Shown piece by piece: positions 6,718-25,965 of a stretch of 26,898 bases of DNA. The stretch comes from a virus. A model generated the notes under the pieces. That model saw only the letters and a list, made by a program, of their open reading frames with translations. It searched no databases and was not told the DNA's origin. The stretch is taken from positions 6,927 through 33,824 of IMG/VR virus record IMGVR_UViG_3300011129_000044; one strand, written 5' to 3'. The first letter of the stretch is position 1. Every line of letters begins with the position of its first letter. A program made the position numbers and the translations under genes.

Positions 6718-6997
6718 AGGAGCAAGTTTATTGGGTTTGTTGCCTGTTGTTATGGTAGCAAGTGGCGCTTTGTTTTCTTATGCTAGTTTAGACGCGATGG
6801 CATCTGAAAACTCTGAGGACATTGAAGATGTCACAGAGCAGGTCGAAAAGATTGAAGATGAAGTAGACGAGCTACAACAAAAGATGACTAGAACAGAAAT
6901 ACAACTGTCTAATGTAGCAGAAGACCTTGGTGATGTCAGGGCTGACACTAAGACTATTCTAACTATTTTATCTAACCAGCGATCATCAACTAAATAG
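6707..6997 (+). CDS. Membrane-anchored coiled-coil protein, possible lysis accessory
   Basis: 96 aa behind a near-perfect ribosome binding site (AAAAGGAGGTAAGCA). Residues 7-30 are hydrophobic (ASLLGLLPVVMVASGALFSYASL), a transmembrane helix or uncleaved signal anchor. Residues 35-90 form an acidic heptad-patterned coiled coil (DVTEQVEKIEDEVDELQQKM). One N-terminal membrane helix plus a long periplasmic or cytoplasmic coil is the build of inner-membrane spanins, but it could also be a virion or superinfection protein. The next two genes are also membrane or secreted mini-proteins, so a lysis cluster is a fair guess rather than a demonstrated role. Confidence 0.72.
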   Translation: MEIKGASLLGLLPVVMVASGALFSYASLDAMASENSEDIEDVTEQVEKIEDEVDELQQKMTRTEIQLSNVAEDLGDVRADTKTILTILSNQRSSTK

Positions 6998-14590: not shown

Positions 14591-15338
14591 TTAAAGTATC
14601 CTCTAAGTTCAGCCTATGGAAACTTTTCCAATCCCTACGCATATAAACCAAGTTCCAACAAGTCTCTAGACGTTCTTTCCAATCGTCAGGGTGAGCTTTC
14701 TTCCACTCTTCCTGTACCTTAGCGAACATATCAGGCTTACGGACATCAGCTAAGATCTTTTTCGCGGTTATCTTACCAACGCCCACAAGACCTTGAATGT
14801 TGTCAGTAGAGTCTCCTGTAAGCATCTGTATACACATATTATAGTAACCTTGGTCTTTACACACATAATATAAAGTTTCTTTGTTAAAGTTATAGTGCCA
14901 ACCTTCTACCATATCAATGTCTTTATCTATATGGGCTATAACAAAATGTTCCTTAGCGTCTAAAGCTTCTTGCGCCCATATACTTACTACATCATCTGCT
15001 TCACAGTTATCAGACTTAAAGTGTCCTAAACTATAAGCATACTCATTGAGGTCTTTTCGTCTTTCCGTTAGTTTAGGGTCTGGGTTTTCGTTTTTCTCTT
15101 CCTTTCGCTTACGTTTGCCTTTATAATTTTCTTCTATGTTATAACGGAAGTTGTTTTCCCCTTTTACAGCTACCGCTATATCAGAACTACACGTATCCCA
15201 ACCAATATTTTCAATTTCTTCATCATAATATTTCTTAGCTAGGTCAAGAGTAATGTCTTTAAGTGCTATCCGGTAGATAATTGAATCAGCATCAATAAAG
15301 CATTTGTCAAAGGGTCTTCCTTTTGGTTTAGTGTTCAT
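14577..15338 (-). CDS. 5'-3' exonuclease, FEN/T7 gp6-like
   Basis: 253 aa. Metal-binding residues: FIDADS (Asp16/18), NCEADDVV (Glu113, Asp115, Asp116), HIDKDID (Asp138/140) and GDSTDNIQG (175-183), followed by the helix-3-turn-helix DNA-binding loop GLVGVGKITAKKIL. The enzyme degrades RNA primers and 5' ends during replication, recombination and host DNA breakdown. It sits between the GIY-YIG gene (11-base overlap) and endonuclease I, the order expected for a T7-like replication module. All catalytic acidic residues look present. Confidence 0.93.
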   Translation of the reverse strand: MNTKPKGRPFDKCFIDADSIIYRIALKDITLDLAKKYYDEEIENIGWDTCSSDIAVAVKGENNFRYNIEENYKGKRKRKEEKNENPDPKLTERRKDLNEYAYSLGHFKSDNCEADDVVSIWAQEALDAKEHFVIAHIDKDIDMVEGWHYNFNKETLYYVCKDQGYYNMCIQMLTGDSTDNIQGLVGVGKITAKKILADVRKPDMFAKVQEEWKKAHPDDWKERLETCWNLVYMRRDWKSFHRLNLEDTLNVSV

Positions 15339-15861
15339 ATATAACTTCCAATATTAATTCATTAGCTACTACAGGTTTTAACTTAAACCATTCATTAATG
15401 TTATCACATTCTTTAGCAAGTCTTTTGTGTGCTGCATCTTCCCCTGCTCTTCTATCCTTCACTTCATAAACGTACAATAAAGAGTAATCTCTGAACGGTG
15501 CGCACGTTTGATAACTTTTAAGCCTGTCAGATGAATCTACAGCCATCCCTACCTTTACCCACTCAGGCCACGCGGGGTTAGAAATAACGTAAACTTGGCC
15601 CTCTGGTTTTGTGTTAAAGTTCTCTAAAGAATTAAATGCTGCTTCTTCAAAACTTTTGTAGTTTCCGGCTTTAAATAAAGGATGTGATTTACTGATGTAT
15701 TTACCATTAACATACATTCTATTATCATTCCCTTTTTTTTGATTGCGCGCTCTCCTCCTCCTACCGTCAACATGAATAAACCACCACGAACCGTCTTTAA
15801 AAAAGTAATTATTTTTTGTGGGTTTAACAGGGTTAGTGGGTATTTGCCCAGTTATCTCCAA
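15328..15861 (-). CDS. GIY-YIG (MUG113/T5orf172-type) endonuclease, possibly homing
   Basis: 177 aa if it starts at the TTG at 15861, with GGAG nine bases upstream; no ATG or GTG lies between there and the conserved part. The first third has a Trp/Arg patch (DGSWWFIHVDGRRRRARNQ), perhaps DNA-binding. Residues 88-163 hold the nuclease fold: GQVYVISNP, VKVGMAVDSSDRLKSYQ (conserved Arg113), GEDAAHKRL and NEWF. The gene begins inside the 3' end of the DNA polymerase gene in another frame (about 29 bases overlap) and overlaps the exonuclease start by 11. Such inserts between replication genes are often free-standing homing endonucleases. The start remains uncertain. Confidence 0.82.
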   Translation of the reverse strand: MEITGQIPTNPVKPTKNNYFFKDGSWWFIHVDGRRRRARNQKKGNDNRMYVNGKYISKSHPLFKAGNYKSFEEAAFNSLENFNTKPEGQVYVISNPAWPEWVKVGMAVDSSDRLKSYQTCAPFRDYSLLYVYEVKDRRAGEDAAHKRLAKECDNINEWFKLKPVVANELILEVIYEH

Positions 15862-17599
15862 CTTTGAATTCTCCGGCAAGGGGACATCTGAGGTTAAAGT
15901 GATTTCCTGCTGCTTCCATACAGGCTGTTGCAAGGTGTCCGAACTGTTGTGCCATCTCCTGTCTGACTTCCGATTGGATCTCATCATGAATATTCCCTAT
16001 AAAGTGATAATCAAGTTTATGTAAAGTCGCATAATGATCTAACAGGCACAACGCTTTCTTCATAACAATGGCACCTGCTGATTGCAACAGGGTATTTAAT
16101 GCACTGTGTTCTGATCGTACAATGACCCTTCGCCCGTCCAGTCCACGAAGATAGCCTCTTGTAGCGCCTGATCCAACTCGCTCTCGTAGTTCTGCAAGTG
16201 CTGGCGTATTTCTAAGGAACTCTTCTTTAAGTCTTCTACCTGTTTCTGCATTTCCTCCGACGATAGAGCCGATCTTAGCATCTCCGGCACCGTATAAGAA
16301 AGCATAAATAAAAGTTTTAGCTTCATCTCTTGTTCCAATTCCTGCATTAATTTGATTTGCTGTGTGTATATCACCATTGAGTATTTCATTGGTATAATCC
16401 TCATCGTTCATGTAATGAGCCAACATTCGTAGCTCAAGACCGCTGGCATCCATACCTACTAACGAATAGCCCTTGGGTACTGTCCAACACTGTCGGCACT
16501 CTTTACCGTAAGGAGAATAGGCCGCAGGTACTTGGCCCATGTTAGGGCTAGAGTGAGTCATCCTAGACGTTACAGCACCTATAGAATTAACATAACCATG
16601 CACCCTACCATCGTCTTTAACAGCCTCTAACCAACTTTGTACCTGTGCTATACGCTTTTGTATCATAAGGTACTTAGCAATCAATACAGCCTCTGGGATA
16701 TCCGTTACATTCTCTAAGGTCTTTTCATCTACAATAGGTTTACCTGTCTCTGTGTACTTGTCCTTATCAGGCACCCAACCAAAGTACTGTAGATAGCGTC
16801 CAATCTGCTGCCTAGATCCTAAATTAAACTGTTCCCAGTCTATTCTACTAAAGTCACCGCATACGTCAGTCCATTGGTCGCCTAAGAACTTTAACCCTAC
16901 AACAGATAGCGTGTTGTCTTTTTTAACTTTTGGTTGAACTTCCTTAACGAATGTAGGCAACGGTTTGAAAGTCTTATGTACTTCGTCTTCATACTCATTC
17001 TTCTTCTCCTTTAATTGCGCTAGTAATACAAAGGCTTTCTCTTGGTCTAGTAACCAACCCTTGTCTATCTGCTTTGATACAATGCGTTGTACATCATGCT
17101 CTAAATCTATAGATTCCTGAGAGAACCCTTTTAACTTTAAGCTCTTGTTGTCTCTTAACTCGTAACGTACCTCTTGTAAGACTCTCTTGTTAACCAAAAC
17201 GTCCTGCTGACAGTACAACAACATCTCAGGCGTAAACGTATCCCAATCGCTGTAATCGCCTTTAGGGAACCTTAGACGTTCTCCCCATGCCTTTAAAGAG
17301 TGGCCGCCCTCTCTAGAAGGATTAGCTAACCTAGACAGCACTAGGGTGTCTACTATCTCGCAACCACTAAAGTCTATGTTCCACAGCTTCTCAAGTACTG
17401 GTATGTCATAGCCTATAATGTTGTGTCCTACTAAACGGCAGCGTCCCTCAGTAATGTACGCTTGAAACTCAATAGCGTCTTTAGTCCAAAAGGAAACCTC
17501 GCCCTCTAAAGCACAAACACAATGAACTACGTCTGGGTCAAGACCATTAGTCTCTATGTCAAATATTATCTCTCTAACCTGTGCGTCTGAGGAAACCAT
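15833..17599 (-). CDS. DNA polymerase, family A (T7 gp5-like)
   Basis: 588 aa. Proofreading exonuclease motifs: FDIETNGL (Asp14, Glu16), VGHNIIGYDIP (Asp65), YCQQDV (Asp133). Polymerase motifs: A at MDASGLELR (Asp384), B at RDEAKTFIYAFLYGAG (Lys428, with Tyr432 at the position of E. coli Pol I residue 762 and T7 Tyr526), C at HDE (538-540). The exonuclease-to-motif A distance is about 100 residues less than in T7 gp5 (704 aa), which fits absence of the thioredoxin-binding thumb insertion. Start overlaps the helicase stop (TAATG). The 3' end overlaps the GIY-YIG gene. Confidence 0.97.
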   Translation of the reverse strand: MVSSDAQVREIIFDIETNGLDPDVVHCVCALEGEVSFWTKDAIEFQAYITEGRCRLVGHNIIGYDIPVLEKLWNIDFSGCEIVDTLVLSRLANPSREGGHSLKAWGERLRFPKGDYSDWDTFTPEMLLYCQQDVLVNKRVLQEVRYELRDNKSLKLKGFSQESIDLEHDVQRIVSKQIDKGWLLDQEKAFVLLAQLKEKKNEYEDEVHKTFKPLPTFVKEVQPKVKKDNTLSVVGLKFLGDQWTDVCGDFSRIDWEQFNLGSRQQIGRYLQYFGWVPDKDKYTETGKPIVDEKTLENVTDIPEAVLIAKYLMIQKRIAQVQSWLEAVKDDGRVHGYVNSIGAVTSRMTHSSPNMGQVPAAYSPYGKECRQCWTVPKGYSLVGMDASGLELRMLAHYMNDEDYTNEILNGDIHTANQINAGIGTRDEAKTFIYAFLYGAGDAKIGSIVGGNAETGRRLKEEFLRNTPALAELRERVGSGATRGYLRGLDGRRVIVRSEHSALNTLLQSAGAIVMKKALCLLDHYATLHKLDYHFIGNIHDEIQSEVRQEMAQQFGHLATACMEAAGNHFNLRCPLAGEFKVGDNWANTH

Positions 17600-19230
17600 T
17601 AAAACTCACCCCCATCGTCCAGAGGACAGGTTGTCTCCTCCATGCGTCCAGTATCTTTATTGTAATGTAGGTAGCAAGCAGGGCCAGTAAGCCCAGCAAA
17701 GCGATTCTTCAGCACTCTAACTGTCGTCGTGTTTCGTATCCTTGGATCTCCATTCTGCTGATCACGTTCTAAACCAATAACCATGTCGGATAACTGAGCA
17801 ATCGCAGCGGAACCTCTTAGCTCTGCAAGAGATATTTGTCCACCGTCTTCATGGGCTTTACCCTGTGGCCTACGCAAGTGTGACACAAGGAATAAACCTA
17901 CGCCTGTCTCTTGTACCAGTTTACGAAGGTTAGTCATTATGCTGTCAATGGCCTTACGCTCATCTGCTATATCTTGGTCGCTAACTACGATACTCAGATG
18001 ATCTAGGATTATCCACTTGCAATCAAGACCTTTAGCCATGTAGCGTATTCTAGCTAACAGGTTATCTTCTGACGTAGAACCCCAGTGATCGAACAGGTAA
18101 ACCCTACCAGTACCTAAAGTACGCTCCCAGAACCCGCGTTTAGCTTCAACGTCAAAGTCATCCCTGAGATGCAAGGGTGCGTTAGCTTCAATGGACATAA
18201 GACCCAGAGCAGTTCTAGGCACATCTTCCTCTAACGCTAAAATACCAATGTTGTCCTCTGTAGCATCTAGGATGTAATGCTCTAGCTCTCTCACTAACTG
18301 ACTCTTCCCCATACCTGAGCCGCTAGTTATCGTCACTAGCTCACGCTCCCTAAAGCCGAATGTAAGGTCATTAAGACAAGACCAAGGGTAAGGATATACC
18401 AGTACATCCTCTCTGGCAGTTATCATGTCCCATGTGTCCACACCTGAGACAATACCATCAGGTTGATAGGTCTTAGCGTTCCACCACTCCTTAACGAACT
18501 CAGTCACCTTGTTCGCCACTAGCATCTCTGCTGCATCCTTCATGGGTAACACGACATTCTTTGCCTTATTAGGAGTAAACAGGTCTAGCACTGAATTAGC
18601 TGCATCCTGTCCCGCCTTGTCAGAATCAAAGCAGACGACCACATTGTCAAAGGTCTCTAGGTACTCTAAGTTCTCTTTAATGTCCTTAGCAGCGTTAGGT
18701 GCGCCTGATCTTATGGACACCACAGGCCATTTATTGTCAAACATCTCTGATACTGCGAGGCAATCCTTCTCACCCTCAGTTATGGTTATGTATTTACCGC
18801 CACCTTTAAACTTCTGTTGACCAAAAAGACCGACATTATGAAAACCACCTGTAGCAAAGAATTGCTTTGAGTCACATACTCGCACCTTGGTGCCTGTGGT
18901 TTCATTAGTGCCTTTATCAACGTAAGGGTAGTGGTGTTTAACTATCTTACCCACTGAATCGTATTCTACGGTCACACCATACAACTGCATAGTAGCCTTA
19001 GATAAACGAAGTTCAGGTATAGCTGCTACAACACCTGTCATCTCTAATCCTCTGTGTAATATGCCTACTGACAATATATCTCTCTTATCGTCATCAGCAA
19101 ATTCATAGTATTGACAGCCATAACAAAAAGCATGGCCGTCATCGTATCTACCTAGATTGTCCTTAGAGCCACACTTAGGGCATGGCTCATGTCTGACAAA
19201 TTTAGACTCAGTTTTATGTTTATGCTTCAT
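17599..19230 (-). CDS. Primase-helicase (T7 gp4-like)
   Basis: 543 aa. N-terminal zinc ribbon CPKC...CYGC (Cys17, 20, 36, 39) reads the priming site; the TOPRIM primase core has TEGEKDCLAV (Glu152) and CFDSDKAGQ (Asp202, Asp204). The RecA-like helicase has Walker A GSGMGKS (304-310), Walker B WIILDH (406-411), a sensor His451 and a putative arginine finger at LKNRF. The protein ends CPLDDGGEF: short acidic tail with terminal Phe, as in T7 gp4, where the tail docks on the polymerase. Separated from the SSB stop by two bases. Confidence 0.97.
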   Translation of the reverse strand: MKHKHKTESKFVRHEPCPKCGSKDNLGRYDDGHAFCYGCQYYEFADDDKRDILSVGILHRGLEMTGVVAAIPELRLSKATMQLYGVTVEYDSVGKIVKHHYPYVDKGTNETTGTKVRVCDSKQFFATGGFHNVGLFGQQKFKGGGKYITITEGEKDCLAVSEMFDNKWPVVSIRSGAPNAAKDIKENLEYLETFDNVVVCFDSDKAGQDAANSVLDLFTPNKAKNVVLPMKDAAEMLVANKVTEFVKEWWNAKTYQPDGIVSGVDTWDMITAREDVLVYPYPWSCLNDLTFGFRERELVTITSGSGMGKSQLVRELEHYILDATEDNIGILALEEDVPRTALGLMSIEANAPLHLRDDFDVEAKRGFWERTLGTGRVYLFDHWGSTSEDNLLARIRYMAKGLDCKWIILDHLSIVVSDQDIADERKAIDSIMTNLRKLVQETGVGLFLVSHLRRPQGKAHEDGGQISLAELRGSAAIAQLSDMVIGLERDQQNGDPRIRNTTTVRVLKNRFAGLTGPACYLHYNKDTGRMEETTCPLDDGGEF

Positions 19231-23314: not shown

Positions 23315-23569
23315 GTGGGTACCATATAGACCCTCACACTTGCCTTATGATAACTTGGGTTGCCTGTGGATAACTTTGTGGATAACTTATGTTCCACGTA
23401 GAACCTTGGGCTATCTTATGTATAACTTTGGGGATATCCTTGGGATAAACTGTGGATAACTTGTGTATATGTATAACTCTGTGGATAACCTGTGGATAGC
23501 TTGTGGATAGCCTGTGGATAAAAGACACCGGAGGGGGACAGACGCTACAGTATTCTTATGGGTACCCAC
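23315..23569. repeat. 9-bp inverted repeat flanking the origin-like array
   Basis: GTGGGTACC at 23315-23323 and its exact complement GGTACCCAC at 23561-23569 bracket the DnaA-box array. Each contains the palindrome GGTACC. They could be protein sites marking the array ends; chance cannot be excluded. Confidence 0.5.
23345..23521 (+). repeat. DnaA-box-like repeat array, putative replication origin
   Basis: Five exact TGTGGATAA (complement TTATCCACA, the strongest E. coli DnaA box) start at 23365, 23377, 23451, 23480 and 23513. Two TGTGGATAG variants start at 23491 and 23502, with degenerate copies near 23345, 23417, 23429, 23440 and 23468. All point the same way. The last four strong copies are spaced exactly 11 bases, and several others 11-12, about one helical turn. 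The unit is roughly ACYTGTGGATA. An AT-rich tract adjoins. This is the build of a DnaA/iteron origin; the role is inferred. Confidence 0.75.
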
Positions 23570-23743
23570 CCGCATACAAAAGAAGCCAAAAGTGAACATT
23601 TAATGACAATAAATACAACATAAGTAAAAGCTATAAGTGTATGACACCAGTATACCTTTTGGTTATATTGTTCTTTTAATAATATAGAAACATAAGTATT
23701 ATTAATACTTTTCAGTAAAATTACAAATAAGACAAAAAAAGAC

Positions 23744-23772
23744 TTGACTTTTGCTTAAAAATATGTTAGTAT
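23744..23772 (+). promoter_or_regulatory. Rightward sigma70-like promoter for packaging genes
   Basis: TTGACT (-35, 23744-23749), 17-base spacer, TAGTAT (-10, 23767-23772). Start expected near 23780, leaving an AT-rich leader of about 120 bases before the small terminase gene. No other promoter of this quality was seen upstream of the packaging genes. Confidence 0.65.
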
Positions 23773-23885: not shown

Positions 23886-23901
23886 CATAAGTATACTTAT
23901 G
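23886..23901. promoter_or_regulatory. 16-bp perfect palindrome over the terS start codon
   Basis: CATAAGTATACTTATG is its own complement and its last three bases are the ATG of the small terminase gene. It could be an operator for a dimeric protein or an RNA hairpin occluding the start. No clear ribosome binding site precedes this ATG. Confidence 0.55.
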
Positions 23902-24318
23902 AATACAGAAGAAAAACCTAAGAGGAAGCGTGGGCGACCTAAAAAGACAGAGATGGTGTCTAGAAAGAGGGGAGCTACAGGTCTACCTAGAGGCCGTCCT
24001 AAAGGTGATGCTGCTATTATCAATGAGTATAAGGGTCGTATGCTTACGTCTCCTAAATCTAAGTTGGTCTTAGAGTCTATATTTGATGCTGCTTTAGATA
24101 ATGAACACAAACATCAAGCTGCTGCTTGGAAGCTTTTAGCTGATCGTATAGTCCCTTTAAGTTACTTTGAGAAAGATAAGGTAGCTGGTGGCAAAAGTGC
24201 TATTAACATTTCTATTACTGGTGTCGGTGGAGAGCAGACAATAATTTCTTCTGGTTCTAATGACACTCAAGATGATGCTTTAGACGCAGAATACACAGAG
24301 GACTATCCAAATTTCTAA
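23899..24318 (+). CDS. terS: Small terminase subunit-like protein with two AT-hooks
   Basis: 139 aa. The N-terminus carries two AT-hook motifs, KRKRGRPKK (8-16) and LPRGRPKG (29-36), which bind the minor groove of AT-rich DNA. A helical middle follows (EYKGRMLTSPKSKLVLESIF, AAAWKLLADRIVPLSYFEKDK), then a beta-like INISITGVGGEQ and an acidic C-terminus (DDALDAEYTEDYPNF). This arrangement is the usual small terminase candidate upstream of terL in marine podophages; the family is inferred from position and pattern. No ribosome binding site is evident before the ATG, which lies in a 16-bp palindrome. Confidence 0.75.
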   Translation: MNTEEKPKRKRGRPKKTEMVSRKRGATGLPRGRPKGDAAIINEYKGRMLTSPKSKLVLESIFDAALDNEHKHQAAAWKLLADRIVPLSYFEKDKVAGGKSAINISITGVGGEQTIISSGSNDTQDDALDAEYTEDYPNF

Positions 24319-24711: not shown

Positions 24712-25965
24712 ATGACTGACTTAAACGTACAGTTGCTCCCTTGGCAGCAAGAGGTGTTTAGCGACCCTACACGCTTCAAAGTAATTGCAGCAGGTCGTCG
24801 TACAGGTAAATCAAGGTTAGCTGCTTGGTTATTGATAATCAATGGTCTTAGCGAAAAAGCAGGTCAAGTGTTTTATGTTGCTCCAACTCAAGGACAAGCT
24901 AGAGATATTATGTGGACGCTTCTATTGGAGCTTGGACACGGTGTTATTGCTTCTAGTCATGTTAATAATCTTCAGATTAAGTTGGTCAACGGTTGCACAA
25001 TAGCCCTAAAGGGTGCTGATAGACCAGAGACTATGCGTGGTGTCTCTTTAAAGTTTTTGTGTATGGATGAATATGCAGACATGAAACCTGCTGTATGGGA
25101 GCAGATTCTAAGACCTGCCCTAGCTGACCAAAAGGGTCATGCGTTGTTTATCGGTACACCTATGGGTCGTAATCATTTCTATGAGCTATATAACTATTCT
25201 AAGTTAGCAGAGGATGAAGATTTTAACGGTTGGCACTTTACAAGCTATGACAACCCGTTATTAGACCCTAAAGAAATAGAGTCAGCAGAAAAGTCAATGT
25301 CTCGGTACTCCTTTAGACAAGAGTTCCTAGCCTCTTTTGAAGCCCAAGGTAGCGAGTTATTCAAAGAAGAAGACATAGTGTTTCTAGAGGAAGAACCAGA
25401 GGAAGGGGAATACTACATAGCTGTTGACCTTGCTGGTTTTACAGATGTAAACAAAGTTAAAACAAAAACAAATCATTTAGATGAGTCAGCCATAGCCATA
25501 GCAAAAGTTAGCACATCAGGTTGGTGGGTCGCAGACATAAAGCATGGTCGTTGGGGCGTAGAAGAATCTGCTAGACGCATTTTTGAGGCCGTTAGAGATT
25601 ACAAACCTATTTCAGTAGGTATAGAAAAAGGAATAGCTAAAAACGCAGTCTTGCCTTACATAACAACCTTAATGAAACAAAAAAATGTCTTCTTTAGAAT
25701 AGAAGAGTTAACCCACGGAAATAAAAAGAAAGTTGATAGAGTTGTTTGGGCATTACAGGGTCGATTTGAACACGGAGCCATTCGCTTGGCTAAAGGATCT
25801 TGGAATACACAGTTCTTAGATCAGTTATTTCAATTTCCTAACCCCTTAGTCCATGACGATCTTATAGATTCTTTAGCGTATATAGATCAATTAGCTAAAG
25901 TAGCCTACAATATGGACATGGATATTGACGAATATGAACCAATGGACGCTTACGCGGGATACTAA
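24712..25965 (+). CDS. terL: Large terminase subunit
   Basis: 417 aa. ATPase: Walker A AAGRRTGKS (26-34), Walker B FLCMDE (115-120), coupling segment IGTP (147-150). Nuclease: Asp239 in IAVDLAGF, Glu305 in GIEKG, Asp382/383 in HDDLIDSLAY. Drives DNA translocation through the portal and cuts the concatemer. Shorter than T7 gp19 (586 aa) but with both domains intact. The gap from the peptidase gene holds only a weak ribosome binding site. Four bases separate it from the portal gene. Confidence 0.96.
   Translation: MTDLNVQLLPWQQEVFSDPTRFKVIAAGRRTGKSRLAAWLLIINGLSEKAGQVFYVAPTQGQARDIMWTLLLELGHGVIASSHVNNLQIKLVNGCTIALKGADRPETMRGVSLKFLCMDEYADMKPAVWEQILRPALADQKGHALFIGTPMGRNHFYELYNYSKLAEDEDFNGWHFTSYDNPLLDPKEIESAEKSMSRYSFRQEFLASFEAQGSELFKEEDIVFLEEEPEEGEYYIAVDLAGFTDVNKVKTKTNHLDESAIAIAKVSTSGWWVADIKHGRWGVEESARRIFEAVRDYKPISVGIEKGIAKNAVLPYITTLMKQKNVFFRIEELTHGNKKKVDRVVWALQGRFEHGAIRLAKGSWNTQFLDQLFQFPNPLVHDDLIDSLAYIDQLAKVAYNMDMDIDEYEPMDAYAGY

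Follow-up and report, generated by a model that had tools for sequence, protein, structure and literature searches.

What does a compact array of sites resembling those of the host initiator DnaA do in the genome of a phage whose replication genes are of the T7 type? The question is raised by a locus in the window analysed here, a stretch of 26,898 nucleotides that forms part of a 33,824-bp virus record (IMGVR_UViG_3300011129_000044, positions 6,927 to 33,824). The preliminary description of this window had proposed a replication origin at this locus, noting that the phage has replication enzymes like those of T7 and that no RNA polymerase was in view.

The enzymatic part of that proposal stood, with T7 as the positive control. 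The genome encodes a T7 gp4-type primase-helicase (17599–19230, minus strand), a T7-type DNA polymerase I (15833–17599, minus strand), a single-strand-binding protein, an exonuclease and an endonuclease. No match to the T7-type RNA polymerase (PF00940) was obtained in this genome, complete but for 20 bp, with T7, nasanit and BD5 being positive. The contig was assembled as a near-closed circle with no ends in it, and comparison with L002 and L003 placed the missing 20 bp inside the portal gene. A phage-encoded DnaA was also not found, with E. coli and others positive as controls. Additionally, an ORF that overlaps the polymerase gene (15328–15987) is similar to homing-endonuclease-like families, and a protein with collagen-like Gly-X-Y repeats is encoded at 79–927.

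To the right of the array, on the plus strand, are found a conserved 139-aa ORF (23899–24318), a candidate small terminase called 'TerS' by position alone, for which family searches gave no named match, and the large terminase subunit (24712–25965), whose nuclease part is weakly similar to the T7 terminase. The divergent promoters that had been described around the array call for a qualification: promoter matches in the region (9) do not outnumber those in shuffles (7.3), although a TTGAC-N17-TATAAT-like site precedes the downstream ORF in most of the relatives inspected, represented in the window by the promoter-like TTGACT-N17-TAGTAT at 23744–23772 (plus strand), upstream of the rightward ORF.

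Box content and phasing of the array

The array occupies positions 23365–23521 on the minus strand, as determined by box matches, a shuffle test and the phasing observed in relatives. The exact motif TGTGGATAA, which corresponds to TTATCCACA on the minus strand, starts at positions 23365, 23377, 23451, 23480 and 23513, and one-base variants of it (CTATCCACA) start at 23491 and 23502. About five degenerate copies can be read from the sequence at about 23417, 23429, 23440, 23462 and 23468 and, once these are counted, a ladder of 11–12 bp steps is nearly filled from 23417 to 23513. This content, in a single orientation, had been described correctly and lies far above chance. With 1000 dinucleotide-preserving shuffles of the whole 33,824-bp record as the null model, seven same-strand boxes with at most one mismatch were observed per 160 bp against a shuffle maximum of three, and the record contains six exact boxes against a shuffle mean of 0.32. 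Away from the array, box density is ordinary, with nine boxes of at most one mismatch in the rest of the window and 7.2 expected for the whole window. The 11-bp spacing reported for the four strong boxes at the end of the array is exact, but two of the four are one-base variants and not exact copies.

Directly to the right of the array, a G-run (GGAGGGGG, 23530–23537, plus strand) is present, which takes the form GGGGGCGGGGGGG in many relatives and is comparable to the poly-C tracts in the terminal repeats of Yersinia T7-like phages (PMC5923468). The possibility that the array is a known RNA was dropped, since an Rfam search of it matched none.

Relatives were collected by similarity of the large terminase and the primase, and the related contigs are unevenly sampled. 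Of 51 non-redundant upstream regions, 25 have boxes at the syntenic site, about 380–600 bp upstream of the conserved ORF that precedes the large terminase. In these relatives, the distances between same-strand boxes show a period peak of 10.4–10.5 bp, in agreement with the helical phasing that had been claimed; when boxes were re-placed at random 2000 times within each array, the observed strength was never matched, a result to be taken as a guide and not as a probability, considering that the relatives are not independent. The main box changes tolerated in relatives are G or A at position 5, that is, TTATNCACA. Since this tolerance is what would be expected for TTATNCACA, the boxes look like genuine DnaA boxes, which supports the identity first given to them. 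By inspection, no link was seen between the array and one type of replisome, as loci with and without boxes both have close primases.

When viral contigs were scanned for a triplet of exact boxes spaced 11 bp apart, at least 120 stretches matched, and in 24 of those listed the encoded terminase shares at least 45% identity with that of the window. In these 24, the array is found upstream of the neighbouring ORF wherever this ORF could be placed, and in five of them, among those listed, its orientation relative to the terminase genes is reversed.

Conserved cores and turnover of the array

The array is flanked by two cores that are alike, both on the plus strand and predicted to mark the genome ends: a left core, TGGGT/ACCATATAGACCCTCACACTT (23316–23341; family consensus AGGTATCCNCTAGCATACTCACACTT), and a right core, GGGT/ACCCACCCGCATACAAAAGAAGCC (23560–23587; family consensus CGGTACCCGCNCGTATACAAAAAAAGCC), the slash marking the predicted cut. 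The box region lies between them, upstream of the terminase genes, with the G-run near the right core. In principle, the two cores could instead be an operator pair and not end signals.

Both cores are present in 60 loci, of which 30 contain at least two exact boxes in the interval and 29 contain no box. The expected conservation at the syntenic site was thus found in part, with the array at the matching position in many relatives but missing from these 29. On the large-terminase tree, array presence requires 11 changes, at least nine of them forced by well-supported branches, which puts the gains or losses of the array at nine or more. Since half of the two-core loci are boxless and presence turns over on the tree, the array represents an accessory filling of a conserved two-core frame.

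The same interval may also contain other elements. An inverted repeat, GTGAC...GTCAC, recurs just to the right of the left core in many relatives; in L144, L100, L125, L066 and L022 it is located between the left core and the array, and it is not evident in the window. At the start of contig L601, GTGCAGTGCAACATA repeats are interleaved with DnaA boxes. The interval of L109 (4990–5143) and the core-to-core intervals of L154 and L103 lack DnaA boxes and contain GC-rich repeats, GCAGGTGTGCG for example, that recur about every 10 bp.

The occurrence of such other repeats in the interval of boxless relatives (L109, L103 and L154) is what would be expected if the likeness to DnaA boxes were incidental and the repeats served phage packaging proteins, in a manner comparable to the CCTAAAG repeats of T7. 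It would also fit the position of the array, which adjoins the terminase genes, and the fact that T7 itself has short repeats near its ends. However, exact copies of TTATCCACA are found in unrelated phage groups as well, their density in the core-to-core interval is about 590 times that of the rest of the family loci, and TTATGCACA and TTATACACA are among the box forms tolerated in relatives, all of which makes incidental likeness rather improbable.

A predicted terminal repeat around the array

Seventeen long contigs were examined, and one relative, G016 (36,338 bp), was found to have an exact direct terminal repeat of 221 bp. Its TerL is 59% identical to that of the window, and it has a T7-type primase and no RNA polymerase. 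The repeat begins within the left core (GGTG/TTTTTCTCATACTC) and finishes within the right core (GGT/CACCTTAACAGACACAAAAAAG), its two borders thus occupying equivalent positions in the cores, give or take one base. It holds seven exact boxes, at 61, 72, 83, 114, 125, 155 and 166. Its length is unlike that of the usual assembly overlaps; the end overlaps of G020 (127 bp), G002 (127 bp) and G011 (106 bp) were attributed to assembly and rejected as terminal repeats. Two contigs from other metagenomes, L586 and L589, begin 8 nt ahead of the left-core CATA, compared with 7 nt in G016. End signals are therefore indicated at both borders, where the cores of the 60 loci coincide with the ends of G016 and with the left ends of L586 and L589. 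In nearer relatives, contig ends are denser around the interval, yet they are scattered and do not fall at fixed bases, for which reason fixed genome ends were not derived from contig-end statistics alone.

Considering the cut points of the two cores, a direct terminal repeat of 243 bp is predicted in the window at 23321–23563 (no strand assigned), and the whole array is probably contained in it. The repeat itself was seen in G016, the sole family member to display it, and it is from this relative that the window's interval is read as its counterpart. Like T7-type terminal repeats, the interval is non-coding, lies beside the terminase genes and carries short repeats and a G-run.

Arrays in cultured phages and other viruses

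A search with the array consensus matched 51 phage records, among the matches listed. At the level of the records, the array is found within the direct terminal repeat of phiEap-1 (five boxes in 195 bp), ZK1 (eight boxes in 292 bp) and A7 (eight boxes in 177 bp), and in nasanit and P483 it lies in the part that matches the T7 terminal repeat. The phased TGTGGATAA arrays of the Autographiviridae phiEap-1, ZK1 and A7 thus resemble that of the window in their placement, but, unlike the window's phage, all three have an RNA polymerase gene and genes that point one way. Their arrays appear to have passed unremarked in the literature searched. The reading of the window's interval as a terminal repeat is supported by the G016 repeat, the starts of L586 and L589, the 60 two-core loci, the arrays of phiEap-1, ZK1 and A7, and the placement in nasanit and P483.

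RNA polymerase was detected in nasanit and BD5 by search and in phiEap-1, ZK1, P483 and A7 by annotation. Replication in phages that encode this enzyme is expected to initiate at RNA polymerase promoters, as in T7. Since such phages carry arrays all the same, the presence of a DnaA array does not imply a DnaA-dependent origin. No exact box was found in SIO1 or in the examined 50 kb of pelagiphage HTVC115P, in both of which RNA polymerase is not annotated.

Further arrays were observed in other viruses. The microvirus bajarodmic virus 1126 (L542:3781–3820) has three exact boxes, 11–12 bp apart, directly after its replication initiator gene; Lactococcus phage AM1 (L540:3954–4044) has DnaA boxes in a 1.6-kb non-coding stretch rich in G-runs; and in Arthrobacter phage Tiff81 (L539:2940–2983), about 90 bp or less from the end of the record, three exact boxes precede a G-run. 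A previous study predicted DnaA boxes at an origin in a Pseudomonas phage with 628-bp terminal repeats (PMC11512268); with the words searched, no publication describing DnaA arrays in the terminal repeats of phages was found. The array is a real, recurrent feature of several phage groups.

The array as a possible replication origin

According to the origin proposal, host DnaA bound to the phased array would melt nearby DNA, the phage primase-helicase would load and synthesis would start, and this could also take place after the ends are joined through their terminal repeats. The near-complete genome has no T7-type RNA polymerase, which would leave T7-type initiation unavailable, and the array is situated at the divergence of early and late genes. 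Additionally, the same 11-bp triple array occurs in bacteria, where 54 of the 118 loci listed have dnaA or dnaN within 8 kb, and at least two DnaA boxes close together, one of the features of the basal unwinding system, are present in the array. In these respects it resembles bacterial oriC and the DnaA-box origins of phages and plasmids, of which P1 oriR is an example, where high-affinity boxes are clustered, with 11-bp spacing near dnaA/dnaN in bacteria.

However, the remaining anatomy differs. DnaA-trio runs (at least four), counted when the repeats lie within 16 bp of a box (definition in PMC8287927), were found near no more than 5% of the family arrays, the same as in shuffles, whereas bacterial arrays near dnaA/dnaN have trio-like runs in 29% of cases against 12% of shuffles, on the left side and on one strand. 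The immediate flanks of the phage family arrays have a GC content of 50–60%, and for 50-bp flanks the values are 50–55% versus 36–40% in those bacterial arrays, so that an AT-rich unwinding region adjoining the boxes is missing from these flanks. The AT-rich neighbourhood originally described is to be found farther off, in stretches about 60–250 bp away on both sides. The anatomy therefore lends no support to the origin reading.

The same conclusion was reached from the distribution of the array, which, unlike that expected of oriC-type origins, is not kept in all relatives: 29 of the 60 two-core relatives are boxless, the gains and losses number at least nine, and arrays are also found in phages with their own RNA polymerase. 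The switch in GC skew, which had been put forward as a check, is identical in boxless relatives and tracks gene direction, and it was dropped as origin evidence. Taken together, these observations did not bear out the array as the replication origin: such a function is considered unlikely, and phage replication probably does not have to begin at the array.

Possible roles of the array at the genome ends

The reading preferred here, and considered reasonably likely, is that the array comprises host-DnaA sites on one face of the helix, inside a terminal repeat of about 243 bp of a T7-type linear genome with two-core ends, and that it would be used locally for duplication or maturation of the junction, for holding DnaA, or for both. 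In such a scheme, an ordered filament of host DnaA would cover the array on the incoming genome ends and, once the DNA is replicated, at every concatemer junction, each repeat offering five exact boxes and two variants. The filament could then seed synthesis, or block a passing fork, where the terminal repeat must be duplicated and matured. Alternatively, or in addition, the array could hold DnaA. It is known that terminal-repeat duplication is required in T3 and T7 (PMC5923468) and that the dissociation constant of DnaA for TTATCCACA is close to 1 nM (PMC5835720). Both the binding of DnaA to this array and its effect are predictions drawn from the sequence.

A more specific version holds that, in T7-replisome phages lacking the RNA polymerase, DnaA in the terminal repeat starts synthesis at the junction and so gives each packaged genome two repeats; this host-initiator-driven end duplication is regarded as improbable. 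Most weight is given to a local role at the genome ends, with DnaA capture close behind, and the absence of boxes from half of the family is counted against the end role.

Capture could also be the sole function, in which case the many phage copies would act as a decoy that soaks up host DnaA and halts new rounds of host chromosome replication, the repeat merely offering spare non-coding room. The number of boxes is similar to that of E. coli datA, a chromosomal locus, unlike the phage array, that likewise combines several DnaA boxes, two consensus and four with one misfit (PMC5835720). A decoy would also be compatible with the frequent gain and loss of the array, with its reversed orientation in the five loci noted above, and with its recurrence in unrelated phages that replicate in different ways, among them microviruses and T7-like phages with RNA polymerase. 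Nevertheless, the family array is always found at one site, which a decoy would not need, and a pure decoy is thus seen as possible but doubtful.

Comparison with known systems and implications

Terminal repeats of the T7 type are known to contain short repeats. In T7-like Yersinia phages, whose ends were mapped experimentally, repeats of 10–12 bp and poly-C tracts are found in terminal repeats of 190–224 bp (PMC5923468). The interval described here is like those of T7, T3 and the Yersinia fPS phages, which are 100–300 bp long and non-coding, with short 10–12 bp repeats, poly-G/C tracts and the terminase nearby (PMC5923468), but it differs in that the short repeats are phased exact DnaA boxes on one helical face and in that no T7-type RNA polymerase is encoded. 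The locus may therefore be described as an accessory host-DnaA array in a probable T7-type terminal repeat, with end processing or DnaA capture as its putative function.

These results also call for caution, as DnaA boxes and skew alone are insufficient to call a phage origin. Host-initiator sites that appear in the terminal repeats of several phage groups, helically spaced and repeatedly gained and lost, point to a host-protein step at the genome ends or to DnaA capture, an idea that is directly testable in cultured phages such as phiEap-1.
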